The notes under the pieces are model-generated. The model was not told where the DNA came from and made no database searches. It saw only the letters and a program-made list of their open reading frames with translations. A stretch of DNA of 24,517 nucleotides, from the IMG/VR virus record IMGVR_UViG_3300048015_000333, positions 1-24,517 of that record. One strand, 5' to 3'. The DNA is from a virus. Of this stretch, positions 3,670 through 22,660 are shown in pieces; the first letter of the stretch is position 1; the number at the start of each line of letters is the position of its first letter. Both the position numbers and the translations under genes were made by a program.

Positions 3670-3672
3670 GGC

Positions 3673-6798: not shown

Positions 6799-6826
6799 GG
6801 TGGGCTCCCGTGTTGTCCCCAAAATC

Positions 6827-6962: not shown

Positions 6963-6991
6963 GGAAGAGGCGGAGACCGCTCCCCGACCCC

Positions 6992-8650: not shown

Positions 8651-9388
8651 ATGGATATGTCGGTCGTGCGTCTGTGGTTATTGGCCTCGCAGATCCTCCT
8701 GGCCGCGGGCGCCGTGGCCGTGGTTCTGGGCGCGGTGGGCACCGTGCGCTTCACCGCCCTGCGCGAGCGTCTGGCCGTGGCCGAGGCGATCAGCCGGCGC
8801 CCCCCCGCGCCTGACGCGCCGGCGCCCGAGGGGCCGACCCCCGCCGCCGCGCCGGTGTCGGACACGCCGCCGCCCACCCCCGTCGCGGTCCCGGCGGGCG
8901 GTCCCGCCGCCTCCGCCGCCAGCCTCGCCCAGGTCACGGCCCTGCGGACCGAGAACCAGACCCTCAAGAACCAGCTCGCCGCCGCCCAGAAGGATCTCAA
9001 GGCCGCGACCGAGCATGCGGCCCAGGGCCACACCCCGTCGTCCGGCCCGCGCAGCCTGACCGATGCGCAGAAGACCCGTCTCCTGGCGGCGCTGAAGGCC
9101 ATTCCGGGGCCCCCGAATCTGGACGTCCTGACCCTCTCCGACCCCGAGGCGGCGGCCTATGGCGACCAGTTTGTCCGTCTGATCGACCAGGCCGGCTATC
9201 GCGGCCAGGCCAAGAACATCGGCCTGCCCAATCCCGCCCCCCGGGGCCTGCATCTGACCATCAAGCCCGGCAACGCCCGGGGCACGGCGATCAAATACGC
9301 CCTGGAGGCGGTCGGCATCCCCGTCACCGTCTCCGCCGGCGACACCGGCGCCTTCGACATCCAGATGACGATCGGGCTGAAGCCGTAA
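8651..9388 (+). CDS. Membrane-anchored coiled-coil protein, unknown function (cargo 1)
   Basis: Start at the ATG 8651 (245 aa); an alternative ATG is at 8657 and the ribosome site is weak. Architecture: one membrane helix (residues 8-30), a Pro/Ala-rich linker (50-85), a coiled coil (SLAQVTALRTENQTLKNQLA, about 90-122) and a compact C-terminal domain from GPRSLTDAQ (132) to the end. That domain includes DPEAAAYGDQFVRLIDQAG, a PRGL strand and AIKYALEAVGIPV. The same layout and motif landmarks recur in the 21855-22649 protein. It is transcribed against the tail operon and ends 23 bases before the stop of a gp4-like gene, so it is probably cargo rather than a virion part. Related architectures occur as uncharacterised proteobacterial proteins. 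Confidence 0.75.
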   Translation: MDMSVVRLWLLASQILLAAGAVAVVLGAVGTVRFTALRERLAVAEAISRRPPAPDAPAPEGPTPAAAPVSDTPPPTPVAVPAGGPAASAASLAQVTALRTENQTLKNQLAAAQKDLKAATEHAAQGHTPSSGPRSLTDAQKTRLLAALKAIPGPPNLDVLTLSDPEAAAYGDQFVRLIDQAGYRGQAKNIGLPNPAPRGLHLTIKPGNARGTAIKYALEAVGIPVTVSAGDTGAFDIQMTIGLKP

Positions 9389-9411
9389 GGGCCAGCCGAA
9401 GCGCCCTCTCC

Positions 9412-10074
9412 TCACCCCGCCGCGACCGAAAGCCCGATCACGCCATCCACCTGCCCCCTACCGCGCCGGTAATAGGTCCGGGCGAAGGCTTCCCGCCCCT
9501 CCTGCGCCGCCGCCGCGATCTCGGGCCGGATGTCGGCCCCGAACTCCGCCGCGATCACCACCGCCAGCATGTAGGGCAGATAGGCGATCAGCGGGTCGGG
9601 TAACTCGATGGCGCTGTCCAGGGCGGCGAAGTCCGCCTCGATGATCCAGTTTCCCGTATCGCCGCGAAACCAGAAGCGGGTGTTCCGACCTGTCGTCGAG
9701 ATCACATAATTGGCCGCCGCGCCGTTGATCAGGCGCCCATTGGGATTGATGGTCAGGTTGTAGGTCGCCCAGGACAGGCCCGCATCCACGACGCCGAACC
9801 GCGCGCCAGACCCGGGGTTGAGGGGCGCCGTGAGGGTGAAGGCCACGCCGCCGGGGATCTGATACTCGCCGCCGTTTTCAGCCTGGCCCGTCGCGCCCGT
9901 GAGGCTTTGCGGCCCCAGCCGTGGCCCGATCAAGGTTCCGAACATCGCCCGCTTCATCGCGTTGATCGCCACCAGGGCGTCCGCCGCCTCAGACGCCGAG
10001 GGCTCCGCGCCCGAGGCCCACAGGCCATGCAGACGACCGGCGCGCTCAATCACCTGGCGAACCGTCAGGGACAT
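9412..10074 (-). CDS. P22 gp4-like tail accessory (head-completion) protein, copy 1
   Basis: A 220-aa protein. The N-terminal helix pair (SLTVRQVIERAGRLHGLW, then SEAADALVAINAMKRAMFGT) and the C-terminal helices (PDPLIAYLPYMLAVVIAAEF, ...QEGREAFARTYYRRGRG) match the P22 gp4-type ring protein that extends the portal after packaging. Between them lies an inserted beta-rich segment (about residues 65-150: GGEYQIPGG, FTLTAPLN, TRFWFRGDTGNWIIEADF) not present in the shorter P22 protein. The 13447-14109 gene has the same length and plan. It is placed just upstream of gp10-like, as in P22-type tails. Confidence 0.7.
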   Translation of the reverse strand: MSLTVRQVIERAGRLHGLWASGAEPSASEAADALVAINAMKRAMFGTLIGPRLGPQSLTGATGQAENGGEYQIPGGVAFTLTAPLNPGSGARFGVVDAGLSWATYNLTINPNGRLINGAAANYVISTTGRNTRFWFRGDTGNWIIEADFAALDSAIELPDPLIAYLPYMLAVVIAAEFGADIRPEIAAAAQEGREAFARTYYRRGRGQVDGVIGLSVAAG

Positions 10075-10101
10075 GGGGGCCTCCGGGGGATGGATATCGA
10101 A

Positions 10102-11178
10102 TTAGACCGGCAGGTGGCCGGGCGTCAGGAACGGCGCGAGCTGGCGGTAGCCGTTGGCAAAGATGGCGACGGCAACGGCGACCGTGATCCAATTGGCGCG
10201 CCCGCGAACTAGGCTGATAATCATGGCCACCCAGATTAAGGATGTCAGGGCGCGCGAGAAAAGTTCAAGAATCGAAGCGAAGGGGAAGTTTGTGAAGATG
10301 AGGAAAGCGCAGATAAAATAGGCCAGAGGAAGTGTGAATTTCCCCAGAACCACGACGAAACAGTACAGCCATTTGGTCAGGACATCCGCCTGTCGCTGGA
10401 CCTGATCCCCAATAAAATAGACACCGAAGCCCAGCACCACCCAATACAGTTTTTTGTAGACCGCAGCCTCGGGCGCGAGCTGATAAATGCCAGAGTAGCG
10501 CGTCAAGACGAATTGAAGATAGTCGGCCCTGTCGGTCACCAACATGGCCACAAACGCGGCGCTGATCACCGCCGCCACAGGCAACAGGAAAGGCACGCGC
10601 CGCCAAATACGCTGGCGATTGGGGAAGGTGGAAATGATTGATGCGCCGATCCAAGTGACTACGAAGACAACCGATCCCCAGTGCGTCAGGAACGCCACTA
10701 CGCTAGCCGCGCCGATCAAGCGGGGCCGCGATTTCTGGTCTGCCATGGCCGACACGAGTGGCACCAACATAAAGATTAGCGCCGTGGCCTCGCGTAGCTG
10801 TTCCGAGGCTTTGGACAAGGCCACGATCAATAGGATCAAGGCCGAGATGAAAAACGGTGCCCGGGCGATCCAGATGATCCAGGCCGCCATGACCCCCCAA
10901 GCCGAATAGATGAGGAAGTGAAATAAGTTGAAATTCTGGTCGCCTAGGAGGGTGGCGGCCGTGGAGATTACGAACACCCAGATCGGATCTCGGCTTTGCT
11001 CGCGCAGATAGCCGCCCTGCGTCAGATACATGCTCTGATAACCGCGCAGGTCGCCGAGGGTGTGGAACCCCTCATATAGCCAATACAGGCCCCAGAGACA
11101 CGTCGAGAAGATGACCACGGCCGCTAGGCGGTTGGCTAGGTCCGCGCTTTCGATGCGTCTGGCGGCGCGGGCAGGCAT
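10102..11178 (-). CDS. Polytopic membrane protein, O-antigen/EPS polymerase-like (EpsG/Wzy type)
   Basis: A 358-aa protein with about nine to ten predicted membrane helices. After a first helix (AAVVIFSTCLWGLYWLYEGF) comes a periplasmic-type loop, GDLRGYQSMYLTQGG, with DPIWVFV. Later segments include SKASEQLREATALIFMLVPL, VVAFLTHWGSVVFVV and VLTRYSGIYQL. This pattern (D-x-x-Y loop, R-x-x-A-x-x-x-F helix, then a T/S-H segment) is that of EpsG/Wzy polymerases joining polysaccharide repeats. Base composition is visibly lower in GC than its neighbours. It sits between tailspike and gp4-like genes, on the same strand. The likely role is serotype conversion by altering host surface glycan. No strong ribosome site is seen. 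Confidence 0.65.
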   Translation of the reverse strand: MPARAARRIESADLANRLAAVVIFSTCLWGLYWLYEGFHTLGDLRGYQSMYLTQGGYLREQSRDPIWVFVISTAATLLGDQNFNLFHFLIYSAWGVMAAWIIWIARAPFFISALILLIVALSKASEQLREATALIFMLVPLVSAMADQKSRPRLIGAASVVAFLTHWGSVVFVVTWIGASIISTFPNRQRIWRRVPFLLPVAAVISAAFVAMLVTDRADYLQFVLTRYSGIYQLAPEAAVYKKLYWVVLGFGVYFIGDQVQRQADVLTKWLYCFVVVLGKFTLPLAYFICAFLIFTNFPFASILELFSRALTSLIWVAMIISLVRGRANWITVAVAVAIFANGYRQLAPFLTPGHLPV

Positions 11179-11244
11179 GGGGTGGAGGTGCGGTCCGTCA
11201 AAGGCTACGAGGCCCGAAGCAGGACCATAAGTGACTAGGCGCGG

Positions 11245-13083
11245 TCAACAGTGCGTGACGATGCCGTTGTTGACCGTGAAAGTCGTGAGCGAGACGGTAT
11301 TAGCCGCGCATGAAACGCCCGCCGTTCCGCTTACCGAATAGGTTGTCCCGTTGATCGTCGAGGGCGTGGAAGCGCCCACGGGTGTGCTGTTGATGCCGCC
11401 GCTAAAGGTCGCAGTCCCGTTCGCGCCGGTTAAGGTGATGGTCACAGACCCAGACCCGTAAAGGTGCATGAGCCCATTACCCGAGGATGGTGCGGCAAGG
11501 TCGAAATACTGCCCCGTCCCATTACCGTAATACCCGATCAAGCTGGCGCCATTTTGGAAAATGGCCTGCCCGCTGCTGGTGTAAAAGCTGAACAGATTGG
11601 TTCCGCTGGAGTTGTTGATCCCGAAGGCGAATCCGTTCGAAGGCGGTTGAAGATGCAGCCCAGGCCACGTCAAGGCGCTCCCGATATTGATCGTCTGACC
11701 AGACGGGATAGTAATGCCGCCGCCGAAGGAAGTGGGCGCATCGATCTGGTTGAATGGCGACCCGCCGCCCGCATTGGCACCAATCAGAAAGGCGCTGTTT
11801 GAGAGATCGTAGAAATACATCCCCGAGATTTGGTTTGGCAGGAAGCTCATCCGCGTCCAGGTCGACGGGGCATAGACTATAGGGACCGCCGCTAGGGAGC
11901 CGTGCGTCCCGTCGCTGTATGTCGCGGGAAAATTGCCGTTCGACGGGATTTCAATGTCCGTGTTGATCGTCCAGCTGTCGCTATTCGTCACAGTAACGGC
12001 CGGCACTACGTAAATCCCGGCTGAGTTTGTGTAGCCGTAGGGCCCAGTCCCGGCCGCTAAATAGATTGGCGTCATTGTGGCGCTGTCATAGACGGGCTGG
12101 ATTGAGCCGCCGACTAAGCTGACGAAATTCGCGTAATTTCCGACGATCCGGCCGATATCGGCGTTGATCAAGGTGATTGTGGTGACGCCGTTCCCGGCGC
12201 TCGTCCCCTCCAAATCCACGATATGGCCTTGGAAGTCCTTCAGCGTCGAGGCATAGGCCCCGGTCTTGGCCAGAAAGGCCCGCTTGTTCACGCCATCGCC
12301 GATCACGCGCACGCGGGTATAGGTGGCGTCCCAGGCCTGGATCTGCAGGATCGCCGCATTGGTGGCCAAATCCGACATACTGCTTATGTCGATGACCAGG
12401 TTTTCCAGGCCAAAGCCCTGCACCCAGGAGACGCCCGCGCCGCCGCCCGTGAAGGGCGTCCCGTCGATCACGAAGACGCCGCCGCTGACCGCGCTGGTGG
12501 GCCTGAGGATACAGGCGCCGGTTGTCGCGGGGGCGAAGCTGCTCTGGCCGCCCGCGCCATAATAGGACCCGCCGCCCCGCAGCACCTGGCCGTCATTATT
12601 GGGGCTCTCCACCAGCAGGCTGGCGGTGATCTTGTAGGTTCCCGAACAGCTGAGCGGCAGGCCGCTGGCCAGGGCCGCCTGGATCGCGCTCGTGCTGTCG
12701 CTTACCCCCGTGGGATCGGCGCCGAAGCTGTCGACGCTGGTCAGCACCTCGGCCTTGAGCGCGGCGAGGCTCGTAACCCCCGTCCCGCCATTGGCCAGGG
12801 GAAGCGTCCCCGTGACGCCCGTGGCGAGCGGAAGGCCCGTCCCGTTGGTGAGGTTAAAGGCCGGGGTTCCCAGGTTCGCCGCCACATAGGTGGCGACGGC
12901 GCTGGCCTGGGCGCCCTGGACGGTGGGCGAGCCCGCCGGTTGATCAACAATGACGTCCGTTCCGGCCACCGCGCCGCGCGCCAGCAGGCCGCTGGGCGGA
13001 AGATTCTGGGCGTAGGCGGGGGCGCCCTGGCACGAGGCCAGGAGGGCGAGCGCCGAGACGGCGGGGATCAGCCGGTGTCTCAT
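11245..13083 (-). CDS. Tailspike with pectate-lyase-type beta-helix and an N-terminal signal peptide
   Basis: Start at the ATG 13081-13083 (612 aa), overlapping the TGA of the upstream 52-aa gene by one base. Residues 1-25 form a Sec-type signal (RHRLIPAVSALALLASCQG) with a lipobox-like LASC (C18) and a possible AYAQ cleavage site (residues 23-26). Residues about 30-105 are a fibre adaptor with LPLATGVTGTLPLANGGTG. SVDSFGADPTGVSDSTSAIQ (116-135) is the entry strand of the pectate-lyase-3 beta-helix used by depolymerase tailspikes. A long Ser/Thr/Gly/Asn-rich repeat region follows, ending in NNGIVTHC. It probably binds or digests host polysaccharide. The signal peptide is unexpected for a virion protein. 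Confidence 0.82.
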   Translation of the reverse strand: MRHRLIPAVSALALLASCQGAPAYAQNLPPSGLLARGAVAGTDVIVDQPAGSPTVQGAQASAVATYVAANLGTPAFNLTNGTGLPLATGVTGTLPLANGGTGVTSLAALKAEVLTSVDSFGADPTGVSDSTSAIQAALASGLPLSCSGTYKITASLLVESPNNDGQVLRGGGSYYGAGGQSSFAPATTGACILRPTSAVSGGVFVIDGTPFTGGGAGVSWVQGFGLENLVIDISSMSDLATNAAILQIQAWDATYTRVRVIGDGVNKRAFLAKTGAYASTLKDFQGHIVDLEGTSAGNGVTTITLINADIGRIVGNYANFVSLVGGSIQPVYDSATMTPIYLAAGTGPYGYTNSAGIYVVPAVTVTNSDSWTINTDIEIPSNGNFPATYSDGTHGSLAAVPIVYAPSTWTRMSFLPNQISGMYFYDLSNSAFLIGANAGGGSPFNQIDAPTSFGGGITIPSGQTINIGSALTWPGLHLQPPSNGFAFGINNSSGTNLFSFYTSSGQAIFQNGASLIGYYGNGTGQYFDLAAPSSGNGLMHLYGSGSVTITLTGANGTATFSGGINSTPVGASTPSTINGTTYSVSGTAGVSCAANTVSLTTFTVNNGIVTHC

Positions 13084-13241
13084 CACAGGGTCTCCGAGGC
13101 GGTTTGGCCGACCCATTCGGTCTGGGGCGTGACGACCAGAACCTCGCCCTCGGGCGCGATCTCCAGGGCGTCCTGATCAGGGTCTATGGCGAGATCGACC
13201 TCGCCCTGGGGGTCGAGGGCGGGGTGGCCTTTGAAGGGCAT
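13083..13241 (-). CDS. Small acidic protein coupled to tailspike
   Basis: A 52-aa reading frame from the ATG at 13239-13241, preceded in coding sense by AAAGGA at a 7-base spacing. Its TGA overlaps the tailspike ATG as TGATG, so the two are translationally coupled. The protein (MPFKGHPALDPQGEVDLAID, ...LEIAPEGEVLVVTPQTEWVG) is acidic, with short alternating hydrophobic strands. I recognise no family. Coupling to the spike suggests a spike assembly factor, attachment adaptor or regulator. The ribosome site and the one-base overlap make it likely that this is a real gene despite its length. Confidence 0.68.
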   Translation of the reverse strand: MPFKGHPALDPQGEVDLAIDPDQDALEIAPEGEVLVVTPQTEWVGQTASETL

Positions 13242-13290
13242 GGGGGTGTCCTTTGGCGGTGGCGAAAGGGGTGGGCTGGGGTGGGCTTGG

Positions 13291-13418
13291 CTTCCCCCTC
13301 CACCGCTTCGCGGTCCCCCTCCCCCGCTGACGCGGAGGAGGAGAAAAAGGCGTCGCCTCTCACCTCTCCTCCCCCATATGAATGGGGGAGGGGGACCCCG
13401 AAGGGGTGGAGGGGGAAG
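13291..13418. repeat. R3 repeat, full copy (CCCCCTCC palindrome)
   Basis: 35-bp arms at 13291-13325 and 13384-13418 are near-complementary (CTTCCCCCTCCACC... and ...GGTGGAGGGGGAAG), around a centre with CTCCCCCATATGAATGGGGGAG. Each arm also folds on itself (ACCGCTTCGCGGT; ACCCCGAAGGGGT). A half copy lies at 20386-20438. No gene is visible in 13242-13446. Confidence 0.85.
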
Positions 13419-13446
13419 TTGCCGCGCGAAAAATCGTCGGCGAGCG

Positions 13447-14109
13447 CTAAACGTAACTCGCGCGCGTGGGGGCGCGCCGGCGGCCGGGGCGCAGGAACAG
13501 GGCCTCCCGGGCCCGGGCCACGCGGGCCTTAAGGGCCGCAGAGAGATCCGGGGCCGTGGACATTACATCGCTGAGCCGTTCGGCGAGCAGGGCCGCGAAA
13601 TCCCCCGCCAGACGCCCATTGATCGGCAATTCGCTGTCCAGGGTAAGATCCAGGGCGCTGACCCAGGCATTGGTGTCGTCGCGGTAAAAATAGAGCCCCT
13701 GCTGGATCCCCACGATCTCGATCCGCGCCCCGTCCGTGGGTTGGCGCCAGGCGACGCCGTCCGCCGCGCCGGTCGACCCTAGCGGGGGATGGGCGGGAGA
13801 GCCGGGCGCAAGGCCGGGGTCGAAGCCGAAGTCGTAGGGATCATAAGATCCGTAGATCGCCACGCTGTTGGGCAGGGTGACACTGACGCTCGCGCCGGCC
13901 TGGACCCGCAGGCGCTGGTTTTCGCCGGGGGTGGTGTTTCCGGTAATGTCGAGGGTCAGAAGCGGACCGCGCGCCTCGTGGATCGCCAGCGCCAAATCCT
14001 GGGCCGCCGCCAGACCCACCGCCAATTCATCCGCTTCGGCGGCGTCGCCGGCCGCGGTCGCTCTGATCAGGCGCAGGGCCTTGACGATGGCCGCGCGGAC
14101 AGTGGACAT
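13447..14109 (-). CDS. gp4-like tail accessory protein, copy 2 (paralogue)
   Basis: Start at the ATG 14107-14109 with GGGGAGA upstream (220 aa, the same length as the 9412-10074 protein). It has the same three-part plan. N-terminal helices (STVRAAIVKALRLIRATAAG, ELAVGLAAAQDLALAIHEA) resemble gp4 rings. A middle beta-rich insertion runs from TPGENQRLRVQAGASVSVTL to ARIEIVGIQQGLYFYRDDTN and AWVSALDLTL. C-terminal helices run LAGDFAALLAERLSDVM to ARVAREALF-like residues and a basic tail. YFYRDDTNAW parallels FWFRGDTGNW in copy 1. It may form a second ring, or it may be a diverged duplicate. The assignment rests on shared architecture. Confidence 0.6.
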   Translation of the reverse strand: MSTVRAAIVKALRLIRATAAGDAAEADELAVGLAAAQDLALAIHEARGPLLTLDITGNTTPGENQRLRVQAGASVSVTLPNSVAIYGSYDPYDFGFDPGLAPGSPAHPPLGSTGAADGVAWRQPTDGARIEIVGIQQGLYFYRDDTNAWVSALDLTLDSELPINGRLAGDFAALLAERLSDVMSTAPDLSAALKARVARAREALFLRPGRRRAPTRASYV

Positions 14110-14182
14110 GGGCTGTCTCCCCGGCATTTTTTAGATGATATGACGGCGCGATTTCGTCGCCGCGCGCTGTTCCGGGAGCCCG

Positions 14183-14920
14183 ATGTCAGACCTGTTTACC
14201 AAGGGAACCCTGGCCGAAAAGCTGGCGCGCAACACCGGCAACCTGCTGTTCGGCGATCGGGAGGCGGCGATCCGGGGGATCAATTCCCGGGTCCTGCCGC
14301 TCTATTATCCCCTGGTCATGCGCCGACGGCTGCGCGCCATGACCTTCGAGGCCCCGGTCTTTCTGGATTGCGGAGCCAATCTCGGCCAGGGGTTCGGCGT
14401 TTTCAAACAGATCTATGACCCGTTGCGGTTCGACTATCACTTCTTTGAGCCCAATCCCCATTGCCTGGCGCGCCTGAAGGCGGAGATCGCCAAGACGCGG
14501 TTCGCCAAGGCCCCGACGATCCGTCCCTTCGCCGTCTGGACCCGGGCCGAGACCTTGAACTTCTATGGGGTCGATGCGGCGCAGGACGCCTTCACCCAAG
14601 GGGGCACCTTGAAACCGGACCAGGGCGCGGCCGGGGCGGGGGCGCCTTTCCAGGTCCAGGCCATCGATTTCCTGGCCTATCTGGTCGATCTCCAGAAGGA
14701 CCATGACTACCTGGCCATGAAGCTCGATATCGAGGGCGCCGAGCTGGAAGTGCTGGAGCGCCTGTGGGCCCATGGCGACCAGTTGACCCGGCCCATGGAT
14801 ATGTTCGTGGAGTTTCACGCGCTCTATCAGGCGCCGGAACAGCGACGCCTGAACAAGGCCCGGGAGCTGCGCCTCAAGGCCACGGCTCCCGCGGGGGTGA
14901 CCCTGCACACCTGGTACTGA
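14183..14920 (+). CDS. FkbM family SAM-dependent methyltransferase (copy 2)
   Basis: A 245-aa methyltransferase. Motif I is FLDCGANLGQG (residues 60-70), the acidic motif is HFFEPNPHC (86-94), and the hallmark is AMKLDIEGAELEVLERL (178-194). The ATG at 14183 has CGGGAG upstream. It shares little beyond family motifs with the 2084-3004 protein, so the two are not a recent duplication. It is encoded on the strand opposite to the virion genes and ends 6 bases before the stop of the 14927-15232 gene. The probable role is methylation of a surface sugar or another small molecule. The proximity to the tailspike and Wzy-like genes fits modification of the phage receptor. Confidence 0.9.
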   Translation: MSDLFTKGTLAEKLARNTGNLLFGDREAAIRGINSRVLPLYYPLVMRRRLRAMTFEAPVFLDCGANLGQGFGVFKQIYDPLRFDYHFFEPNPHCLARLKAEIAKTRFAKAPTIRPFAVWTRAETLNFYGVDAAQDAFTQGGTLKPDQGAAGAGAPFQVQAIDFLAYLVDLQKDHDYLAMKLDIEGAELEVLERLWAHGDQLTRPMDMFVEFHALYQAPEQRRLNKARELRLKATAPAGVTLHTWY

Positions 14921-14926
14921 TCCCTC

Positions 14927-15232
14927 TTACGCCACCGTGCCGGGGATCGGGGCGGCGGGCGCGGGGGTCGACTTCTTGGCCAGCAGCTTGGCGCAGACCT
15001 GATCGATCAGCTCATCGGCCACGGGGTCGAGGGCGGTTCCCAGGCCCCCCGGAATGAGGGCCAGGGCGGCATTGGCCGCCGCCGTGGCGATCACCGGGAT
15101 CGCCGCCTCCACATCATTGGCCGCGGCCGTCAGGGACGCCGCCGCCTTGGCCACCGCGGGCGACCCCGCCGGGCCGACAATGCCGGCGAACCAGGCTTCC
15201 ACCTTGTGGAGAAGAAAAGAGAGATCAGACAT
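14927..15232 (-). CDS. Small Ala-rich phage protein, unknown function
   Basis: A 101-aa protein with ATG at 15230-15232 and AAGGA upstream at good spacing. It begins MSDLSFLLHKVEAWFAGIVG, then an Ala-rich helical region (VAKAAASLTAAANDVEAAIP, ...NAALALIPGG) and an amphipathic segment DPVADELIDQVCAKLLAKK. No named domain is recognised. It is on the virion strand between the 142-aa gene and the cargo FkbM gene. Its location downstream of the lysis genes suggests a small late protein. Two hydrophobic stretches leave open weak membrane association. Confidence 0.6.
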   Translation of the reverse strand: MSDLSFLLHKVEAWFAGIVGPAGSPAVAKAAASLTAAANDVEAAIPVIATAAANAALALIPGGLGTALDPVADELIDQVCAKLLAKKSTPAPAAPIPGTVA

Positions 15233-15540
15233 GGGGGATCCTTTTTTGCGAGAGGGGGGTGGGGGTGGGGGATTTTCTTGAAAACACTGTTCTTTTTCGT
15301 CATCCCGGGGCGCGTAGCGAACCCGGGACCCAGGAGACCGGAACGCACCTCAAGGTTCGCGAACCGCGAAATATCTCCCAGTCCCCTGGGTCCCGGATAA
15401 GCCGCTTCCCCCTACGCCAAGGCTTCCACCTCCGCCCCATGGGCTTCGGTGGACAGGTCGGAGGGCAGGTCGCGGCTTTCCGGGATGACGGGGAAGGGCG
15501 GACGTCGCGAGGATGAGCGAAAAGACAGGGCGAGCCCCGC
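15233..15540. other. Gap filled by repeat R1 copy C
   Basis: This stretch of about 308 bases has no convincing gene. It holds R1 copy C with an inserted module and a short tail with GTCGCGAGGATGAGCG, which resembles a stretch at 20505-20520. Small open frames here are repeat translations. Confidence 0.7.
15298..15491. repeat. R1 composite palindrome, copy C (with nested module)
   Basis: Ends CGTCATCCCGG and CCGGGATGACGG, centre GGTTCGCGAACC, with GGGACCCAGG and CCTGGGTCCC. The right arm is interrupted after CCGGATAAGCCGCTT by the CGCCAAGGCT module in its long form (15411-15470), containing CCACCTCCGCCCCATGGGCT. Copy B lacks this insertion. Confidence 0.85.
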
Positions 15541-15969: not shown

Positions 15970-16000
15970 TGCTGGGGTCCTCTCTCGACTCGGACAGGAA

Positions 16001-16029: not shown

Positions 16030-16046
16030 TCAAGATTGGGGGGGGC

Positions 16047-16319
16047 GTGGTGATCAGGAGTTTTCGAGACGCGACGCCGGAAACAATTCTTCGCGGCGGC
16101 GTCCCCCGAGGAGTCTCGGTCGAAATCGCCAAGGCCGCGCGGCGCCGACTTCAAAGCTTGGATGCGGCGGCCAGCCTCGATGACCTCCGGTCGCCACCCG
16201 GCAACCGGCTCCATAAGGTCGGCGAATTGTGGTCGATCAGCGTGAATATGCAGTACCGGATTACCTTCCTCTGGGGTCCCGAGGGCCCTGAGGACGTTTG
16301 GTTCGGCGACTATCACTAA
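16047..16319 (+). CDS. higB: HigB-type RelE-superfamily toxin
   Basis: A 90-aa mRNA-interferase toxin. It starts at GTG 16047 or the adjacent GTG 16050. It has the HigB landmarks: an IRSFRD start, ...EIAKAARRRLQSLDAAASLD, then PPGNRLHKVGELWSISVN (about residues 50-67), YRITFLW and a terminal DVWFGDYH. Toxins of this type cleave translated mRNA at the ribosome. The toxin-first order followed by an XRE antitoxin is characteristic of higBA. It runs opposite to the lysis genes and interrupts them. In a prophage it would act as an addiction or anti-phage module. Confidence 0.93.
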   Translation: MVIRSFRDATPETILRGGVPRGVSVEIAKAARRRLQSLDAAASLDDLRSPPGNRLHKVGELWSISVNMQYRITFLWGPEGPEDVWFGDYH

Positions 16320-16361
16320 GGTGCGCGAGGCGCGCTGGGAGAGACAAGGAGATCCCTTAAG

Positions 16362-16691
16362 ATGGCCGTGATCCGCGACTATACGGGTTTCGAAAGCCCC
16401 CTGCCTCATCCGGGCGAGCACCTGCGAGAGGATTTTCTGCCCCAATATGGACTGACGCCCTATGCCCTCGCCAAGGCCATGGGTCTCAAGGACCGCACCC
16501 GCATTGAGCGCCTCGTGCGCGAGACTCAGCCTGTGACCTCCGACACCGCGCTGCGTTTGGCTAAGGTCTTCGGCACGTCGGCGGATTTCTGGATGAACCT
16601 TCAAACGTCGCACGATCTGTCCAAGGCGGCGATTTCCGGCCGCGAGGCTCTGGAGAAGATCACACCGCTCACGGCACCCGCCGGAGCCTAA
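16362..16691 (+). CDS. higA: HigA-type antitoxin (XRE HTH)
   Basis: A 109-aa antitoxin with ATG at 16362 and AAGGAG upstream, 42 bases after higB. HigA/VapI features are clear: HPGEHLREDFLPQYGLTPYA (residues about 16-35), a helix-turn-helix through LAKAMGLKDRTRIERLVRE, VTSDTALRLAKVFGTSADFW and MNLQTSHDL. It should neutralise HigB and repress the operon through the palindrome at 16010-16026. The stop overlaps the stop of the convergent endolysin gene by three bases, consistent with tight insertion beside the lysis cassette. Confidence 0.94.
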   Translation: MAVIRDYTGFESPLPHPGEHLREDFLPQYGLTPYALAKAMGLKDRTRIERLVRETQPVTSDTALRLAKVFGTSADFWMNLQTSHDLSKAAISGREALEKITPLTAPAGA

Positions 16692-17128
16692 TCTGGCCGC
16701 CGGCCGCTGCGGATCATGGCGGCCAGGCGCAGGGCTCGCTCGCCGACGCCCTGGGGCGGATCCTCGGCCCAGTCGGAGAGCAGCATGGCGGCGCTGGCGG
16801 CGCGAAAATCGTGGGCCTCCAGGGCGCTCAGCATGTGGTGAAAGCCCATCAGGCCGCGCACCCCCAGATTGAAGGCCATGTTGGCCAGGGCGTCCTGGCG
16901 CACCGGGTCCAGGCCCCGCCACCAGGGGATCGCCGCATCCAGGTCGCTTGTGGTGGCGGCGATGTCGGCGGCGAGCTGGGCGTCGGCCTGGGCCAGGGTC
17001 CAGACCGAGCCCGGCGCCACGCCGGCATGACCATAACCACAGGTCCATACGCCCCGGGTGTCGGCATAGGCGGTGAGGCGGCGCCCCTCATCGCGCTTGA
17101 GGTCGTCGATCAACAGGGGCGTGGTCAT
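16688..17128 (-). CDS. Phage endolysin, GH24 (T4-type) lysozyme
   Basis: A 146-aa muramidase that cuts peptidoglycan glycan strands at lysis. It has the exact GH24 catalytic spacing: E14 in DEGRR, D23 in YADTRG and T29 in VWTCGYGH (E-x8-D-x5-T). DALANMAFNLGVRGLMGF (about residues 80-97) is the conserved second-lobe helix, and it ends with GERALRLAAMI. There is no signal peptide or SAR helix, so it needs a holin for release. The ATG overlaps the TGA of the membrane gene upstream as ATGA, indicating coupled translation of a lysis pair. Confidence 0.95.
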   Translation of the reverse strand: MTTPLLIDDLKRDEGRRLTAYADTRGVWTCGYGHAGVAPGSVWTLAQADAQLAADIAATTSDLDAAIPWWRGLDPVRQDALANMAFNLGVRGLMGFHHMLSALEAHDFRAASAAMLLSDWAEDPPQGVGERALRLAAMIRSGRRPD

Positions 17129-17373
17129 GCGGCGCCCGCCCCCTCGACGCGAAAAATATAGCCGTCCACAAGGTCCTGATGCCGCTCCAGCCGGTCCATG
17201 CGGCTTTGCAGGGCGGGGATGGCGTCCTTCAGGGTGTGGATGTCGTCGCGCATGGCGACCAGTTGCATGGCCGTCCAGCCCACCACCGCCAGGATGGCGC
17301 TCAATGCCACCACTGTGGCGGCGTTCAGCCAGTGATCGGCGAGGCGCCGGGGAGGGAGAGGATCGATCGTCAT
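17125..17373 (-). CDS. One-helix membrane protein of the lysis cassette (holin- or spanin-like)
   Basis: I chose the ATG at 17371-17373 (82 aa), with GAGGGA upstream in coding sense. An alternative GTG at 17388 adds five residues. One membrane helix (about residues 18-40, LNAATVVALSAILAVVGWTA) is followed by a charged coiled-coil tail (RDDIHTLKDAIPALQSRMDR, LERHQ). The N-terminus is short and probably cytoplasmic. It directly precedes and overlaps the endolysin ATG, so it is probably part of the lysis pathway as a pinholin-like holin or an i-spanin. A single helix plus coiled coil also occurs in other small phage membrane proteins. Confidence 0.7.
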   Translation of the reverse strand: MTIDPLPPRRLADHWLNAATVVALSAILAVVGWTAMQLVAMRDDIHTLKDAIPALQSRMDRLERHQDLVDGYIFRVEGAGAA

Positions 17374-17384
17374 GGCCGGGTCCC

Positions 17385-17852
17385 TCACGGATTGGAGCCG
17401 GCGACGTCTTCGACGTAGTAGGCGATGTCGACTTCCAGCGTCCCGGCGACCGGGGTGGCGGCGGCGGTGTGGACCGTCACCAGAACTTCGACATCCGCGC
17501 CCGTGGTGTTGGCGTAGAGCAGACCCGCCGCCGCAATGGTGGCGTCCGCCGTGGCGCCCGAGGCATGGCCCACCGTGGTCACGGCGGCCTTGAAGAGCTG
17601 GGTCGTCCCGACAATGCCGAGATCAAGGGCCAAGGTCGGCGAGCCGTTGCTGTCCAGTTGGCTCGCGGCCTTCAGGTTGCAGCTCGTGACCACGGCCCCA
17701 CGGGGCAGATAGCCCACGGCGAGGGTGTCGTTCGCCGCCCAGGTGGAAATGCTGCCCGAGACGGCGTGAAGGTGGGTGGATTGACGGGAAAGGCCGTGTC
17801 CGGACGACGGCCCGACCTTGGCGTTGAACAAAGAGGTGGCATAGGCGGTCAT
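17385..17852 (-). CDS. Putative capsid decoration / head-associated protein
   Basis: A 155-aa protein encoded after the major capsid gene and 11 bases before the lysis membrane gene. It is beta-rich: VSGSISTWAANDTLAVGYLP, RGAVVTSCNLKAASQLDSNG, LDLGIVGTTQLFKAAVTTV, and TLEVDIAYYVED at the end. The LPRGAVV...LALDLGI pattern is like small beta-sandwich proteins that follow DUF4043/N4-gp56-type capsid genes, which are thought to decorate the head. I cannot confirm function from sequence alone. The ATG is at 17850-17852 with a weak ribosome site. Confidence 0.65.
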   Translation of the reverse strand: MTAYATSLFNAKVGPSSGHGLSRQSTHLHAVSGSISTWAANDTLAVGYLPRGAVVTSCNLKAASQLDSNGSPTLALDLGIVGTTQLFKAAVTTVGHASGATADATIAAAGLLYANTTGADVEVLVTVHTAAATPVAGTLEVDIAYYVEDVAGSNP

Positions 17853-17938
17853 GCTGATCCGCGCCTTTCATGATGAGGGTTGAAGAGGGGGAAAGCGGAG
17901 GGAGGGGAAGCACGGAGCGCGGAGCGTTCCACCCCTCC

Positions 17939-18129
17939 CCGTCATCCCGGGGCGCCCGTCAGGGCGAACCCGGGACCCAGAGCCTGCCCCGGACTTGATC
18001 CGGGGAGACCGGAACGCACGCCAAGGTTCGCGAACCCCACCCTATCGCCCAGTCCCCTGGGTCCCGGATAAGTCGCTTCCTCCTACGCCAAGGCTCCGGA
18101 GGACAAGCCGCGCCTTTCCGGGATGACGG
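17939..18129. repeat. R1 composite palindrome, copy D (with two nested modules)
   Basis: Ends CCGTCATCCCGG and CCGGGATGACGG, centre GGTTCGCGAACC. The left arm carries an extra hairpin, GAGCCTGCCCCGGACTTGAT, continuing to CCGGGG. The right arm carries the short CGCCAAGGCT module (18082-18107, CCTACGCCAAGGCTCCGGAG). Copy B lacks both. Confidence 0.85.
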
Positions 18130-18162
18130 CGTGTGGGGGTCTCGGAAAAAAGAAAAACTTGG

Positions 18163-18304
18163 ACCACAGATGTCACAGATGGACACAGATATTGGATGGG
18201 GCGCGGCCCGCTCGCGGGCTTATCGGCCGAAGGCGATTTAGGGCCTGCGGCGCCAAGCGCGCGGTGCGGCGCCGTCGCGAGATATATCTGTGCTCATCTG
18301 TGGT
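18163..18304. repeat. R2 repeat, copy 2
   Basis: A 142-bp element with ACCACAGATGTCACAGATGG at the left end and ATCTGTGCTCATCTGTGGT at the right. The interior is almost identical to copy 1 (4897-5047), including CGGCCGAAGGCGATTTAGGG. Its right end lies 6 bases from the stop of the capsid gene (18311). Confidence 0.85.
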
Positions 18305-18310
18305 CGAACC

Positions 18311-19456
18311 TTATGAATCAGCGCCGGCCGCGACGAACACCGTGACCATGCCGTTCTGGACGCCGTTGAAGTTGATCTTCTTGACGCCGAGCAGCTCTTC
18401 CATGGCGACGCCGGGGCGGAAGCCGTAGTCCTTGATCATGTCGGTGCGGGGCGTGGGCTCCTGACCCCAGGCGACGCCCACCGCGCCGCCGCCGCAGACG
18501 AAGATCGGCCGGACGTCGGCGCTGGAGGCGCCCGCCCCGTCGAACGCCGCGCCGCCATTGGGATTGGCCGAGCAGGCGTCGCAATAGGCGTCGATCTCCG
18601 GGATTTCCCGGTGGATCACCCCGTCATAGATCAGATCCCCGTCCTGGAAGATCGGGTTCTTCTCCATGCCCATGCCCTCACGGCTGCGCGCCTGGGTGTT
18701 GGCGGTGATGATGGTGGAATCCGCCTTCAGGTCGCGGAAGGTGCGGGAGCCGTGGAACGCCACGTAGTATTCGCGCCCGTCGCCGTCCTCCACCCGATAG
18801 GGGCGGATGTGCGGGTCCGCCGTCTTGGCGATCCGCTTGGCGAGACCCATGATCGTCGCGCTGGTCTTGTCCGAGGCCGTGCCGACATTGGCCAGAGCCG
18901 TGGCGAAGGTGGCGTTATAGTTGCTCTTCAGGTGACCGAAGAGCACCCGGTCCGAGTTGGCCGCGACCCAGGTGTTCTGCTGCGCCGCCGTGGCCTGATC
19001 GAAGGGAACGATGGTCCCGTTCACGTCGGTCACCACCTGGCACAGGGCCTTGATGATGTCGTCGCGCAGCTTCTCGGATTCCCACACCATCAGGGCGTCC
19101 TTGGCCGCGTCCCAGAGATTGATCTCGGTGCGGAAGGTCGTGGATTTCGGCAGACGAACGCCATTGCGCCGCCAGTCGATGGTGATCGGGCAGTTGAAGT
19201 TCACCAGCTCCTCTTCCGCCCCGTCCAGCACCGTGGCGCCGGTGACGCCCAGGGACTTCAGACGCGCGATGAAGGGGATGTTGATGGTGCGGAACGCCTC
19301 ATCCTCCTTCTGAAACTTGGTGAGGATGATGCCGCCCTTGTTGATGTCGGCGTTCGACATGTAGGGCATGAAGCGGCTGTTGCGGACATATTCCTGGAAA
19401 TACTTGGTGATCCAGACTTGCCGCTCACTGGCAGTCGAAAGAATGGTCTCGGCCAT
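18311..19456 (-). CDS. Major capsid protein (N4-gp56 / DUF4043-type)
   Basis: A 381-aa coat protein with an HK97-like fold by family. Characteristic segments in order are the N-terminal AETILSTASERQVWITKYFQ, GGIILTKFQKEDEAFRTINI, FNCPITIDWRRNGVRLP, then INLWDAAKDALMVWESEKLR (the long spine-helix region). HIRPYRVEDGDGREYYVAFH and GRTFRDLK-like residues follow, and late RTDMIKDYGFRPGVAMEEL, VKKINFNGVQNGMVTVF. This pattern is well known in N4-gp56-family capsids of podoviruses. It follows the scaffold gene after 55 bases, the normal scaffold-coat order. The ATG is at 19454-19456. Confidence 0.92.
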   Translation of the reverse strand: MAETILSTASERQVWITKYFQEYVRNSRFMPYMSNADINKGGIILTKFQKEDEAFRTINIPFIARLKSLGVTGATVLDGAEEELVNFNCPITIDWRRNGVRLPKSTTFRTEINLWDAAKDALMVWESEKLRDDIIKALCQVVTDVNGTIVPFDQATAAQQNTWVAANSDRVLFGHLKSNYNATFATALANVGTASDKTSATIMGLAKRIAKTADPHIRPYRVEDGDGREYYVAFHGSRTFRDLKADSTIITANTQARSREGMGMEKNPIFQDGDLIYDGVIHREIPEIDAYCDACSANPNGGAAFDGAGASSADVRPIFVCGGGAVGVAWGQEPTPRTDMIKDYGFRPGVAMEELLGVKKINFNGVQNGMVTVFVAAGADS

Positions 19457-19511
19457 GGCCTAAGGGTCCTTGCTTGGTTGAGGGCCCAGACGGACGATCC
19501 GACAGGGCGTG

Positions 19512-20198
19512 TTAGCGTCGAATGGCCGCCGCGAAGGCCGCGCCGGGGCCCATGGGGGTCTCGGACAAGGCCCCGGCCCCGCCCGCATTGGGGGCGTTGG
19601 CCAGGGAGCGCGGCGGGGTGGGAACGGGCGTGGGTTGAGGCGTGGGCGCGGGGGCTTGTGCGCCCTGCGCCTTGGCGGCCTTCCACGCCTTGTAGTCGTC
19701 GAGATCGTCCGGGCTGACCTCGGCGAGCAGTTGCTCGCGTTGGCGCGCCTGACGAAGGAACGCATAGGGGTTCTTGGACTGTAGGACCTGCTGGTTGAAG
19801 AGCGGATCAGACCCGCACTTCTCGAAGCCCCATTGATGCAGCGCCTCCACCTCCGCCTCGCCGATCTGGCTGGCCAGAAGCTCCCGCGACAGATCCATCC
19901 GCACGGCCCAGAGTTGCTGGGCGGTCGTTTGCTCCGGCGGCGGAACGTCCGCCTTTCGACCGGCCTCAATCTCCGCCAACCGCTTTTCGGCGGCCTTACG
20001 CTTATCCCGCTCATCCAACAGCGCGGCCACGGGAACGTGGCCAGGCTCCGGCGGCGGGGCCGGCGTTTGGAGCGCGGGCGTCTCGCCCGCGTCCGGCGCG
20101 CTCGCGGGCGGCGGCGGCGGTTCCGTGACCTCGGCTTGAGCCTCAGTCACGCCTTCGGCGTCGCCCTCTATGAGGGCGGCCAGATCTTCTTCATCCAT
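19512..20198 (-). CDS. Scaffolding protein
   Basis: A 228-aa, highly charged, low-complexity protein directly upstream of the capsid gene. The acidic start (MDEEDLAALIEGDAEGVTEA) and Pro-rich stretch (about residues 26-54) are followed by a basic/acidic coiled coil (AALLDERDKRKAAEKRLAEI). A helical region comes next (VRMDLSRELLASQIGEAEVE, ALHQWGFEKC, then NPYAFLRQARQREQLLAEVS). The Pro/Ala-rich tail ends GPGAAFAAAIRR, the short basic C-terminal helix typical of coat-binding scaffolds. It should guide procapsid assembly and be released on maturation. The assignment rests on position and composition. Confidence 0.78.
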   Translation of the reverse strand: MDEEDLAALIEGDAEGVTEAQAEVTEPPPPPASAPDAGETPALQTPAPPPEPGHVPVAALLDERDKRKAAEKRLAEIEAGRKADVPPPEQTTAQQLWAVRMDLSRELLASQIGEAEVEALHQWGFEKCGSDPLFNQQVLQSKNPYAFLRQARQREQLLAEVSPDDLDDYKAWKAAKAQGAQAPAPTPQPTPVPTPPRSLANAPNAGGAGALSETPMGPGAAFAAAIRR

Positions 20199-20235
20199 GG
20201 TGGTTTTCCCTTATCGCCCGTTCAGCGGCGGCCTG

Positions 20236-20298
20236 CCTGTCCTCCGACCTGTCCACCGAAGCCCATTGGGCGGAGGCGGAAGCCTTGGCGTAGGAGGA
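20236..20298 (-). repeat. Free-standing CGCCAAGGCT module, long form
   Basis: On the minus strand this reads TCCTACGCCAAGGCTTCCGC and continues through CCCAATGGGCTTCGGTGGAC to GGAGGACAGG. It is nearly the same as the insertion at 15411-15470 inside R1 copy C, but here there is no flanking R1 sequence. That shows the module is a separable unit. Confidence 0.7.
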
Positions 20299-20385
20299 GT
20301 CTCGCCCGTATCCCGGCGGCGGATGTCAGCTTGACGGGGCCGACGGCCCGAGAGGCGCCCGTTACCCCCGGCGGCGGGGTTTCAT

Positions 20386-20438
20386 CTCCTCCCCCATGTG
20401 AATGGGGGAGGGGGACCGCGAAGCGGTGGAGGGGGAAG
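20386..20438. repeat. R3 repeat, half copy
   Basis: CTCCTCCCCCATGTGAATGG followed by GGGAGGGGGACCGCGAAGCG and GTGGAGGGGGAAG. It corresponds to the centre and right arm of the 13291-13418 element; the left arm is missing. The inner mini-hairpin here uses GCGAAGC, whereas the right arm of the full copy uses CCGAAGG. Confidence 0.8.
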
Positions 20439-20546
20439 CCGCCGCGCGCAAACCGCGCCGCTCATTCTCACCCCCTCCCCGCTCATCCTTGCGAAAGCAA
20501 GGGTCGCGAGGATGAACGGGAGTTTTGGGGTCTAAAGGCCCCCTCC

Positions 20547-20646
20547 CCGTCATTCCGCACGCAGCGACCTGTCCTCCGGAGCCTTGGCGTAGGCGGAAGC
20601 GGAGATGCGGGACCCAGAGCCTGCCCCGGGCTTGATCCGGGGGGGG
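20547..20646. repeat. R1 composite palindrome, partial copy E
   Basis: It begins CCGTCATTCCGCACGCAGCG like copy B, then is interrupted at about 20568-20599 by the CGCCAAGGCT module in reverse (GTCCTCCGGAGCCTTGGCGT), resumes GCGGAGATGCGGGACCCAG, and continues with the hairpin GAGCCTGCCCCGGGCTTGAT found in copy D. The right half of R1 is absent. Confidence 0.75.
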
Positions 20647-20665
20647 CCTGGCGTGATTTCGGGCC

Positions 20666-20827
20666 TTAAGGATACCGTCGATAAATGTCGTGCGATCCGA
20701 CATCGACCAGCTCAAACCGGTCGCCGTCCCTCCGGTGCAGAATGATCCGGTCGCCGCGGTCGCGGTCGCGTGTCGTCGCTTTCTGGTAGGCCCTCAGAAA
20801 CCGCCGGCGCGCCTCAAGCGTCGGCAT
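20666..20827 (-). CDS. Small RelE/ParE-toxin-like protein, possibly truncated
   Basis: A 53-aa frame from ATG 20825-20827 to TAA, overlapping the end of the upstream gene by 14 bases. The second half, RIILHRRDGDRFELVDVGSH then DIYRRYP, matches the C-terminal strand-strand-DIGSHDEVYR pattern of RelE/ParE-type ribonuclease toxins. The first half (RRRFLRAYQKATTRDRDRGD) is far shorter than the usual toxin core. It may be a decayed toxin, a minimal active form, or a coincidental resemblance. It is the last gene of a three-gene minus-strand run between portal and scaffold. An R1 fragment starts just beyond its stop, so repeat invasion may have accompanied decay. Confidence 0.5.
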   Translation of the reverse strand: MPTLEARRRFLRAYQKATTRDRDRGDRIILHRRDGDRFELVDVGSHDIYRRYP

Positions 20828-21266
20828 GCAGAGCGGCGATCTGGCGCTCCATCCAGACCCCGACGTCTTCGCCGTCGGCCAGAGCTTCGGCCTCGGGGCC
20901 GACCCGCGACCCCGGATCCAGCGCGGCGCTCAAAGCCAGGAGTCGGTAATAGTCCTCCACCATGGCGTTGTGCGCGGCCTCGGCGGCCTCGAACAGCGGG
21001 CCGTCTGGGTCCATGGCGTCCAGATTGCCGCGCAGGACATCAAGGCCGGACGACATCAAGGCCGTCAGGCCCTCCACAAGGGCCAGATGGCGGGACTGGT
21101 CCTGGGTGCTCTGCCCCGGCTTAGGCCCAAGCTTGGCGATCACCTCATCGACAACCGCGCGCATCCGCCGCGACCGCGCCGCCACGTCATCGTGCAAATC
21201 GCCAAACCCCGGGCTCGCCAACTCGTGGGCGAAACGTTCGACCGTGCTGGCTTCAGCTAGGGACAT
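20814..21266 (-). CDS. Helical protein of unknown function
   Basis: A 150-aa protein, ATG 21264-21266, beginning 7 bases after the stop of the 70-aa gene and lacking a strong ribosome site, so it is probably coupled. It is mainly alpha-helical and acidic: TVERFAHELASPGFGDLHDD, then SRRMRAVVDEVIAKLG, LALVEGLTALMSSGLDVLRG and AAHNAMVEDYYRLLALSAAL. No membrane helix or recognised domain. Its place upstream of the toxin-like 53-aa frame would suit an antitoxin or partner, but it lacks an obvious DNA-binding fold. It could also be a small phage protein made with the portal. Confidence 0.6.
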   Translation of the reverse strand: MSLAEASTVERFAHELASPGFGDLHDDVAARSRRMRAVVDEVIAKLGPKPGQSTQDQSRHLALVEGLTALMSSGLDVLRGNLDAMDPDGPLFEAAEAAHNAMVEDYYRLLALSAALDPGSRVGPEAEALADGEDVGVWMERQIAALHADA

Positions 21267-21273
21267 AGCAACA

Positions 21274-21486
21274 CTAATTTAGCATTTTTCGCCTGGCCGG
21301 CCAAACGGCTCGCGCCGGCCCGGCAGTTAAGCGCGACAATGGCTCCAGGATCTTCGGATCGGTTGTCTTTAGGTCCGCCACGCGCGCCTTGATGTCTGCA
21401 TCGCGCGTCGCCACTAGCCGCGCCTTCAACGCGGCCTCGGCCTCGGCCACGTTCATCTTGGAACCCGCATCATCAGGGGGAACCAT
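21274..21486 (-). CDS. Small charged protein of unknown function
   Basis: A 70-aa protein whose ATG (21484-21486) has GGAGG at an ideal 7-base spacing. Sequence: a short start, then a charged helix (NVAEAEAALKARLVATRDAD, IKARVADLKTTDP), a KILEPLSRL segment and a basic C-terminus (ARAVWPARRKMLN). No family is recognised. It is the first gene of the minus-strand cassette running to 20666. The divergent, AT-richer region upstream probably carries its promoter. The helical, charged composition would suit a small regulator or a binding partner, but this is speculative. Confidence 0.6.
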   Translation of the reverse strand: MVPPDDAGSKMNVAEAEAALKARLVATRDADIKARVADLKTTDPKILEPLSRLTAGPARAVWPARRKMLN

Positions 21487-21854
21487 CTTGAAACCTCCGA
21501 CGCTGTTTTTGGTCGGCGCAGGTCAAGTATCGCGCCGACGGAGGCAGTGGGCAATTAACTTGCCGCCGTACAGAGAAAACAAGAACAGGAATAGAACAAT
21601 GCGGTTGAAAGGAATCGCCGAGTCAGGTCAATTTTTGGAGGTCCAAATGCATTCTGGGGTGGCTAGACCCGTTCTTAACAGCCGCACACGTCGGCCCTAA
21701 ATTCCAAAATTTCAGTTCCAGTTTTCATTCGCTGGCCACGTGGGCAACAACGTTCTCGGTCAAATCGGCTAATTTCTTCAGATTTACGCGAAACTCACGG
21801 ACAAGCAGAACAGTGTCATTGCTGCAACCATTAGGATTGATAGAAGCAGTAGCC
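21487..21854. other. Divergent, lower-GC intergenic region
   Basis: About 370 bases between the start of the 70-aa gene (minus) and the ATG of the membrane coiled-coil gene (plus). It is visibly richer in A/T than the phage genes around it, so it is a candidate bidirectional promoter region of foreign origin. A 33-codon frame at 21600-21701 is not well enough supported to call. Confidence 0.5.
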
Positions 21855-22649
21855 ATGCAGAAACCGCCATTGTGGCTCCATTGGGTTCCGCATATTTCTC
21901 TCCAGACTGCGAACGCTTTCTACGCATGGGGATGGCGGGCCTCTTTTATAGGCGCTCTAATCACGTTCGGTGGGATCGCATTTCTGTATTGGGGAACACA
22001 TGTAAGAGACCAAGACACCGACTCGCGCCTTGCTCACTTGAATAAACAGGCTGCAGAAGCAACGAGTCTGGCTGCGCAATTAGGCGTTAAGGTCGACGCC
22101 CTGCCAACGTTTGTCGCCGAAAAAGAGAGGATACTAACCTCTCTTGCCGCCCAAATGACAACCACGGCGGCGGCACTCGACAGAGCGAGCGAAGAGGCTA
22201 AGGCGTCTCAGGCGCATGCCGAGGCGGCTTTGGAAAGTTTCCGCAGAGAAGCCGGGCCTCGCGTTCTTTCCGACGCGCAGAGCAAAATGATTGTCTCGAT
22301 ATTGCACAACAAGATTTCGATGAAAGTGACAGTCCAAAGTGATCCTGGCGATGTCGAAGCATACCCTTTCGCCCAACAAATTTTGGGATCAGTTAAATTG
22401 GCGGGCATCGACAGTGAGTGGCAGCCGTGGCCAACGCTTTTTACATGGTTCAATGAGCCTGGGGTTTTCGTTGTGACTTCCGGTGAAGTTGACAAACGAC
22501 AGGCGGATTTGATTTTGGCGGCTCTAAATGCTGCAGGGCTAGATGCCAAGCCTGCGCATACCTCCGAAGACAGGGCCCCTAAGCCGCCGACCCCGGGGTC
22601 GTTGTCTATCGTCGTCTGGAAGCGTCCGCCGCCCTCTCCGCCCAATTAA
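21855..22649 (+). CDS. Membrane-anchored coiled-coil protein, unknown function (cargo 2)
   Basis: Start taken at the ATG 21855 (264 aa); a GTG at 21813 would add 14 residues, and neither has a strong ribosome site. It has a membrane helix (about residues 28-47, RASFIGALITFGGIAFLYWG), a long coiled coil (about 52-132, RLAHLNKQAAEATSLAAQLG through EAALESFRREAG) and a C-terminal domain opening with GPRVLSDAQ (134). This is nearly the landmark GPRSLTDAQ of the 8651-9388 protein. Also shared are a DPxxxxxxY segment followed by an AG, and ALNAAGL near ALEAVGI. GC is lower than in the virion genes. Its stop is 11 bases from the portal stop. Likely horizontally acquired cargo. Confidence 0.75.
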   Translation: MQKPPLWLHWVPHISLQTANAFYAWGWRASFIGALITFGGIAFLYWGTHVRDQDTDSRLAHLNKQAAEATSLAAQLGVKVDALPTFVAEKERILTSLAAQMTTTAAALDRASEEAKASQAHAEAALESFRREAGPRVLSDAQSKMIVSILHNKISMKVTVQSDPGDVEAYPFAQQILGSVKLAGIDSEWQPWPTLFTWFNEPGVFVVTSGEVDKRQADLILAALNAAGLDAKPAHTSEDRAPKPPTPGSLSIVVWKRPPPSPPN

Positions 22650-22660
22650 TCGAGGCTAGG

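Follow-up and report, generated by a model that had tools for sequence, protein, structure and literature searches.

Two opposite-strand genes in a P22-type virion block

Why should one phage carry, at two separate places among its virion genes, two small membrane proteins of very different composition that end in the same domain? The question is raised by a 24,517-base viral contig from IMG/VR (IMGVR_UViG_3300048015_000333), which was analysed over its whole length and is called the window here. The minus strand holds a P22-type virion block with genes for the portal (phrog_156), coat (phrog_334), head closure Hc3 (phrog_578), a P22 gp7-like ejection protein and terminase. The sequence runs from the stop codon of the terminase gene to the ATG of the portal gene, and the identical virus found in L006 continues beyond it, showing that the record is a trimmed fragment. 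Cyanophage Pam1 was the nearest catalogued phage (portal, 44%). The closest prophage portals (63-81%) were found in Caulobacteraceae genomes, plus one labelled only Proteobacteria, indicating that the host of this P22/Pam1-like podovirus most likely belongs to the Caulobacteraceae. Other cargo in the window included a glycine-zipper protein (1554-2090) and FkbM methyltransferases (2084-3004 and 14183-14917).

Both open reading frames named in the original prediction were present on the plus strand, at 8651..9388 (P0001, 245 aa) and 21855..22649 (P0002, 264 aa), opposite to the virion genes around them. P0001 was flanked by the minus-strand Hc3/needle-head gene (6992..8521; phrog_578, 1.2e-77) and by a conserved minus-strand virion-block gene of the tail region with weak PHROG matches only (9412..10074). 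P0002 lay between the minus-strand portal gene (22661..24517; phrog_156, 6.4e-95) and an uncharacterised minus-strand 150-aa gene without a PHROG or Pfam match (20814..21266). The P0001 ORF had a GC content of 73% and the P0002 ORF one of 54%, compared with 67% in the rest of the window; P0002 is part of a low-GC cargo island (21270..22650).

The two proteins had the common plan that had been proposed for them, a membrane helix (by hydropathy), a coil (by heptad score) and a C-terminal domain (by profile and AF2 model). In P0001, a TM helix at about residues 8-31 (8672..8743) was followed by a variable Pro/Ala linker, a coil at residues 92-122 (ALRTENQTLKNQLAAAQKDL; 8924..9016) and the domain at residues 130-245 (9038..9385). 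In P0002, the TM helix was at about residues 29-47 (21939..21995), the long predicted coil at about residues 52-130 (22008..22244) and the domain at residues 132-264 (22248..22646; profile match over 132-258). Both coils were judged by a crude heptad score, not by a trained predictor. An in-frame GTG at 8594 is a possible alternative start of P0001.

P0001 homologues were recovered at L004, L079, L080, L046 and L063. In a comparison of P0001 with the L004 homologue (79% identity), substitutions were distributed 41/24/78 over the three codon positions, whereas the overlapping minus-strand ORF gave the non-coding pattern 62/26/37, a contrast that shows P0001 to be a coding sequence of the plus strand. 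Its overall dN/dS was 0.25; that of the adjoining virion genes was 0.10-0.11. By part, the ratio rose from 0.04 (coil) through 0.13 (TM region, residues 1-45) and 0.25 (domain) to 0.33 (Pro/Ala linker), values which indicate that P0001 is held under purifying selection within the phage clade, most strongly in the coil and TM helix. Close relatives of P0002 were confined to the identical virus in L003/L006, and a search of viral contigs for further P0002-like genes found none. With no diverged close homologue to compare, the coding status of P0002 rests on its domain match, by which it is very probably a real gene.

The proteins carry two diverged copies of one domain

P0001 and P0002 matched each other in BLASTP at E=4e-4, with a pairwise identity of 26-27%. 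A profile for which bacterial relatives alone were used matched P0001 at 5.9e-17 and P0002 at 5.6e-11 among the window ORFs, and the next ORF at 0.15; this test is not wholly independent, since the relatives had themselves been recovered by profiles that started from the two window proteins. The AF2 model of the P0001 domain (pLDDT 88.1, pTM 0.81) had the order H-E-H-E-E-H-E-E, and that of the P0002 domain (pLDDT 76.1, pTM 0.73) the order H-E-H-E-E-H-(short E)-E; the P0002 alignment had taken in P0001-type rows and the P0001 alignment held a P0002 row, so that the models are not fully independent, and the comparison of folds covers these two phage proteins. Searched against the viral structure library, each model had a single significant match, in both cases the 188-aa protein A0A516ME84 (P0001, E 8.5e-10, TM 0.85; P0002, E 8.0e-8, TM 0.66). 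The shared C-terminal fold expected in the original prediction was thus recovered in the models, with like topologies and the same significant match.

The opening motif GPR-x-L-[ST]-DAQ was found at residue 132 in P0001 and 134 in P0002, as had been read from the sequence. Of the DP...Y...AG motif claimed to follow it, the AG stood, and the P0002 'DP' proved to be out of register; the true partner of 'DPEA' in P0001 is 'GDVEA', and the corrected motif reads D-x-[ED], then F/Y-A and A-G. The domain signature spans about 115-130 aa, R-x-L-x(3)-Q ... D-x-[ED] ... AG ... G ... [IV]-[IV]-G, and describes both proteins, P0002 departing from it by a W in place of the last G.

P0001 and P0002 represent a single domain family in two diverged copies, each at a cargo site of its own. 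Chance resemblance between two low-complexity, alanine-rich proteins might be argued from an identity of just 26-27%, but the profile and the fold refute it, leaving this explanation a negligible probability.

A fold search of the PDB gave no match below 1e-3. The closest whole-domain match, which was not significant, was the LytR_C domain of Rv0431/VirR (E 0.016, probability 0.95, TM 0.49). Partial Rossmann-like matches to PyrR, HGPRT, FolD and glutathionylspermidine synthetase were rejected as local beta-alpha-beta similarity. Neither protein had a significant match in Pfam, NCBIfam or PADLOC, and PHROGs gave one weak match, located in the P0002 coil region and not over the domain. The domain therefore appears to be undescribed in these four libraries, and an earlier description in the literature is possible.

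Phage copies, cargo sites and separate acquisition

P0001-type genes were found in six related Caulobacteraceae phages or prophages: the window, three further IMG/VR records (3300049255_000527, L004/L099; 3300047462_000728, L079/L100; 3300047171_000142, L080/L101) and prophage fragments in genomes G114 (L063) and G003 (L059). In five of the six the gene adjoined Hc3 on the opposite strand, the exception being the prophage fragment of the Caulobacteraceae MAG G003, in which it sat at a different site beside ejection genes. The other flank was the same tail-region gene in the four viral records; the G114 contig ends before this point. The site was closed in the more distant phages L102 and L103, where the counterpart of the 9412..10074 gene directly adjoined Hc3 (about 75% identical), at a distance of 63 and 3 bp. 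Cargo around the P0001-type gene varied and comprised a HicAB-like pair in L101, an HTH and DUF6941-like pair in L100, and glycosyltransferase-like and methyltransferase-like genes in L099 (names assigned by eye unless backed by Pfam). The corresponding interval for P0002, from the portal gene to its neighbour, was occupied by an HTH and DUF6941-like pair in G001 and measured no more than 186 bp in L013 and 134 bp in L014. The G001 pair was related to that beside the P0001-type gene in L079, indicating that the two sites share cargo. At both sites, an extra gene lies between virion genes and is absent from relatives, as in a moron.

In the tree, the P0001-type sequences clustered together, with L054 from a Caulobacteraceae genome as nearest bacterial neighbour (fork support 90/88). 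P0002 formed a long, weakly supported branch elsewhere, and a single clade for all six phage copies was mildly rejected (p-AU 0.032). The view that the pair is not a recent duplication, first drawn from the strong difference in composition, was upheld by the GC gap, the low identity and the tree, on which such a duplication was rejected. Most likely, P0001 and P0002 were acquired separately from alphaproteobacterial membrane-anchored proteins. That one domain family occupies two phage cargo sites, most likely through separate acquisition, is the part of our account held with high confidence. Membrane-protein cargo of prophages is a known kind; the domain appears to be new to the libraries used, and its occurrence twice in one phage is unusual.

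A sparse family, mostly on bacterial chromosomes

Profile searches found members in at least 7 of 149 Caulobacteraceae genomes, at least 9 of 150 genomes of the Bradyrhizobium family and at least 4 of 385 genomes in a class-level sample. At least 3 of 399 genomes in a phylum sample had matches, all of them already known, when 11 candidates were scored per genome; among the candidates scored in 101 genomes of Sphingomonadaceae (the Novosphingobium family), a search with no positive control, there was none. A related-locus search on the domain-bearing genomes yielded no confirmed relative; the genome profile searches did find members. No credible match was obtained by tblastn of P0001, P0002, their relatives and the family consensus against 50,697 phage and 72,556 plasmid records. 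Partial matches at E=4 in one such search were taken as noise, and a plasmid search with an approximate consensus probe, which gave no match, was not counted as evidence.

By hydropathy, a TM helix preceded the domain in 23 of 24 members, some of which had two, with a linker or coil in between; the remaining one (L081) had no TM helix as called. The family is sparse, mainly alphaproteobacterial, N-terminally membrane-anchored and mostly chromosomal, with occasional members in islands. Some chromosomal members recurred at housekeeping loci, carB/greA (L076, L095) and argJ/secA (L092, L094; gene names by eye), with no defence genes alongside. Three members lay in islands or near defence-type genes. 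In L077, a 60-aa ORF, an LmuB-like SMC/AAA ATPase (PADLOC LmuB, 5e-30) and a TM-coil-domain gene (L073) formed one operon, the last lying 14 nt downstream of the ATPase gene. In L065 the member was 0.85 kb from a PDC-M04A gene, and in L066 it was about 6 kb from a GAP1-N1 gene, with a resolvase gene also present.

The suggestion of an envelope-located moron family was supported as regards the membrane anchor and the placement of both genes. It did not hold for the family at large, since the prophage tally gave the P0001 type in six related phages or prophages and most other members were chromosomal, making the phage link a narrow one. With most members chromosomal and no credible match in catalogued phages or plasmids, the family is one of host proteins that phages have captured and not, in its own right, a family of morons.

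Proposed function and alternatives

Over the 24 members, the conserved columns were R, L, Q, D-x-[ED], F/Y-A, A-G, G and [IV]-G, most of them structural. Because they include no conserved catalytic set, the domain probably binds a partner or ligand, or serves in assembly, and does not act as an enzyme. The charge after the TM helix was positive in most single-TM members, which suggests a domain on the cytosolic side; the topology is ambiguous, since members with two TM helices, L073 and L088 among them, would place the domain outside. That dN/dS is so low in the coil suggests that oligomerisation is essential to the function.

Our leading reading, to which we assign a probability of roughly 0.4, is that P0001 and P0002 are coiled-coil-assembled inner-membrane factors that protect the lysogen by exclusion or defence. 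Each protein, assumed to be expressed from the prophage, would be anchored in the inner membrane through its one N-terminal helix and would self-associate through the coil into an oligomer. The alpha/beta domain would then be held just under the membrane, presenting a binding surface, and the lysogen would be protected as the genome entry of competing phages is hindered or infection is signalled at the inner membrane. The homology and fold of the domain, purifying selection that is strongest in the coil and TM helix, and the charge bias after the helix were counted in favour of this mechanism. Lysogen protection as the role is weakly suggested, and leads on account of the moron placement, the cargo neighbours, those island relatives that lie close to defence genes, and SieA of P22 as a precedent. 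SieA is described as an inner-membrane protein that blocks DNA injection by related phages and so protects the lysogen (PMC10883804), and the window phage has a P22 gp7-like ejection protein. Like P0001 and P0002, SieA is inner-membrane cargo of a P22-type temperate phage; it differs in having 162-164 aa and three predicted TM helices, compared with 245 and 264 aa and one TM helix each, and no coil or C-terminal alpha/beta domain enters its description in the part of that source consulted (PMC10883804). A SieA-like role is accordingly a conjecture by analogy. Against lysogen protection we counted the housekeeping-locus members with no defence genes beside them, the ambiguous topology, the lack of a PADLOC match for either protein, and promoter consensus scans that scored at chance level for both genes, with a consensus that may not fit Caulobacteraceae promoters.

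A host envelope or signalling role ranks just behind and is nearly as likely: the proteins would act in lysogenic conversion as membrane scaffolds or envelope-state sensors like their host relatives, with a fitness gain unrelated to exclusion. The relatives are mostly chromosomal and in some cases lie at housekeeping loci, and the other cargo of the window (the glycine-zipper protein and FkbM methyltransferases) looks envelope-directed. The LytR_C resemblance also falls on this side, VirR of Mycobacterium being a single-domain LytR_C solo protein that acts as an envelope scaffold (PMC11832169), and one relative weakly matched LytR_C in Pfam (E 0.12). However, LytR_C (PF13399) did not match P0001 or P0002 at E<=1, VirR serves a mycobacterial wall function with no significant sequence or structure match to our proteins, and its domain is extracytoplasmic whereas the charge bias favours a cytosolic one. 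The island members near defence genes speak against a host-physiology role, and a core envelope function fits poorly with a sparse spread, at least about 5-6% of genomes even in the richest families sampled.

Besides lysogen protection in the form set out above, a broader version, in which the domain marks an undescribed inner-membrane family for immunity or exclusion that bacteria keep solo or beside SMC/AAA ATPases, and in which the phage recruited it twice as exclusion factors that differ in specificity, seems to us unlikely. More doubtful is a reading in which the protein belongs to a multi-gene defence machine as its membrane sensor or effector, was captured alone and works with a host ATPase. 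The L077 operon is its model, and Lamassu LmuB is known to pair with variable effectors (PMC10586767); this is a single locus, though, with no ATPase gene beside P0001, P0002 or most relatives. The likeness to Lamassu (LmuA/LmuB/LmuC) is limited to the position of L073 behind an LmuB-like ATPase: no LmuB lies near P0001 or P0002, the L073 domain is absent from the LmuA effector types listed in PMC10586767, and the domain proteins had no match in PADLOC. A lytic-cycle accessory, whether an assembly helper, a lysis timer or an agent of membrane takeover, is improbable, even though both genes lie inside the virion block and the P0001 type adjoins the needle-head gene in five of its six clade members; their strand is opposite to the late operon, L102 and L103 have an intact virion block without the gene, and homologues occur on bacterial chromosomes.

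TolA shares the coarse plan of TM helix, long helix and C-terminal domain, and gave a very weak profile match (E 0.6-1). This was not significant and may be accounted for by alanine-rich helix composition; matches at E of about 1 were discarded as evidence of a relationship.

One phage thus carries, in two cargo sites, two branches of a family whose domain is unnamed in four family libraries, and its two small genes make a lysogen-host or phage-phage function directly testable. They also give an entry point to an uncharacterised family of alphaproteobacterial membrane proteins in which one gene is operonic with an LmuB-like defence ATPase.

Palindromic repeats in the virion block

The intergenic gaps of the virion block were filled by palindromic repeats, located at 4897-5036, 6212-6967, 13289-13432, 15323-15491, 17971-18302 and 20236-20642 of the window. 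These repeats look like dispersed repeats of the host that got into the phage, because a 17-base core of theirs occurred exactly 21 times in the Caulobacteraceae genome G074, where a reversed control gave 0, and 6 of 60 genomes contained one or more copies. It is as if the phage carrying them had resided for long as a prophage. The stretch 4817-5063, which holds one repeat copy, was missing in the related phage L004.

Cargo genes and their exchange

Further cargo comprised a lipoprotein-like glycine-zipper protein (1554-2090, plus strand) and two FkbM-type methyltransferases (2084-3004, minus strand; 14183-14920, plus strand), the first of which was absent from L004. A HigB-like toxin (PF05015) and HTH antitoxin pair was encoded at 16047-16691 on the plus strand, opposite to the virion genes. 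When the site of P0002, one of the two TM-coil-domain cargo genes, was viewed in phage L069, a low-GC pair of HTH and DUF6941-like genes occupied it (3515-4592); such a pair adjoined the P0001-type gene, the other cargo type, in phage L079 (4764-5620), indicating that cargo moves between both sites. In the bacterial island locus L077, a TM-coil-domain family protein was encoded in one minus-strand operon (8373-11739) with a 60-aa ORF and an 819-aa LmuB-like SMC/AAA ATPase, possibly an unlisted Lamassu-like arrangement.

Ends of the record

Position 1 of the window fell exactly on the terminase stop codon, and position 24517 on the portal ATG. Past the portal, the longer record of the identical virus (L006) held the apparent end of a sulfotransferase-type gene, as judged by eye.
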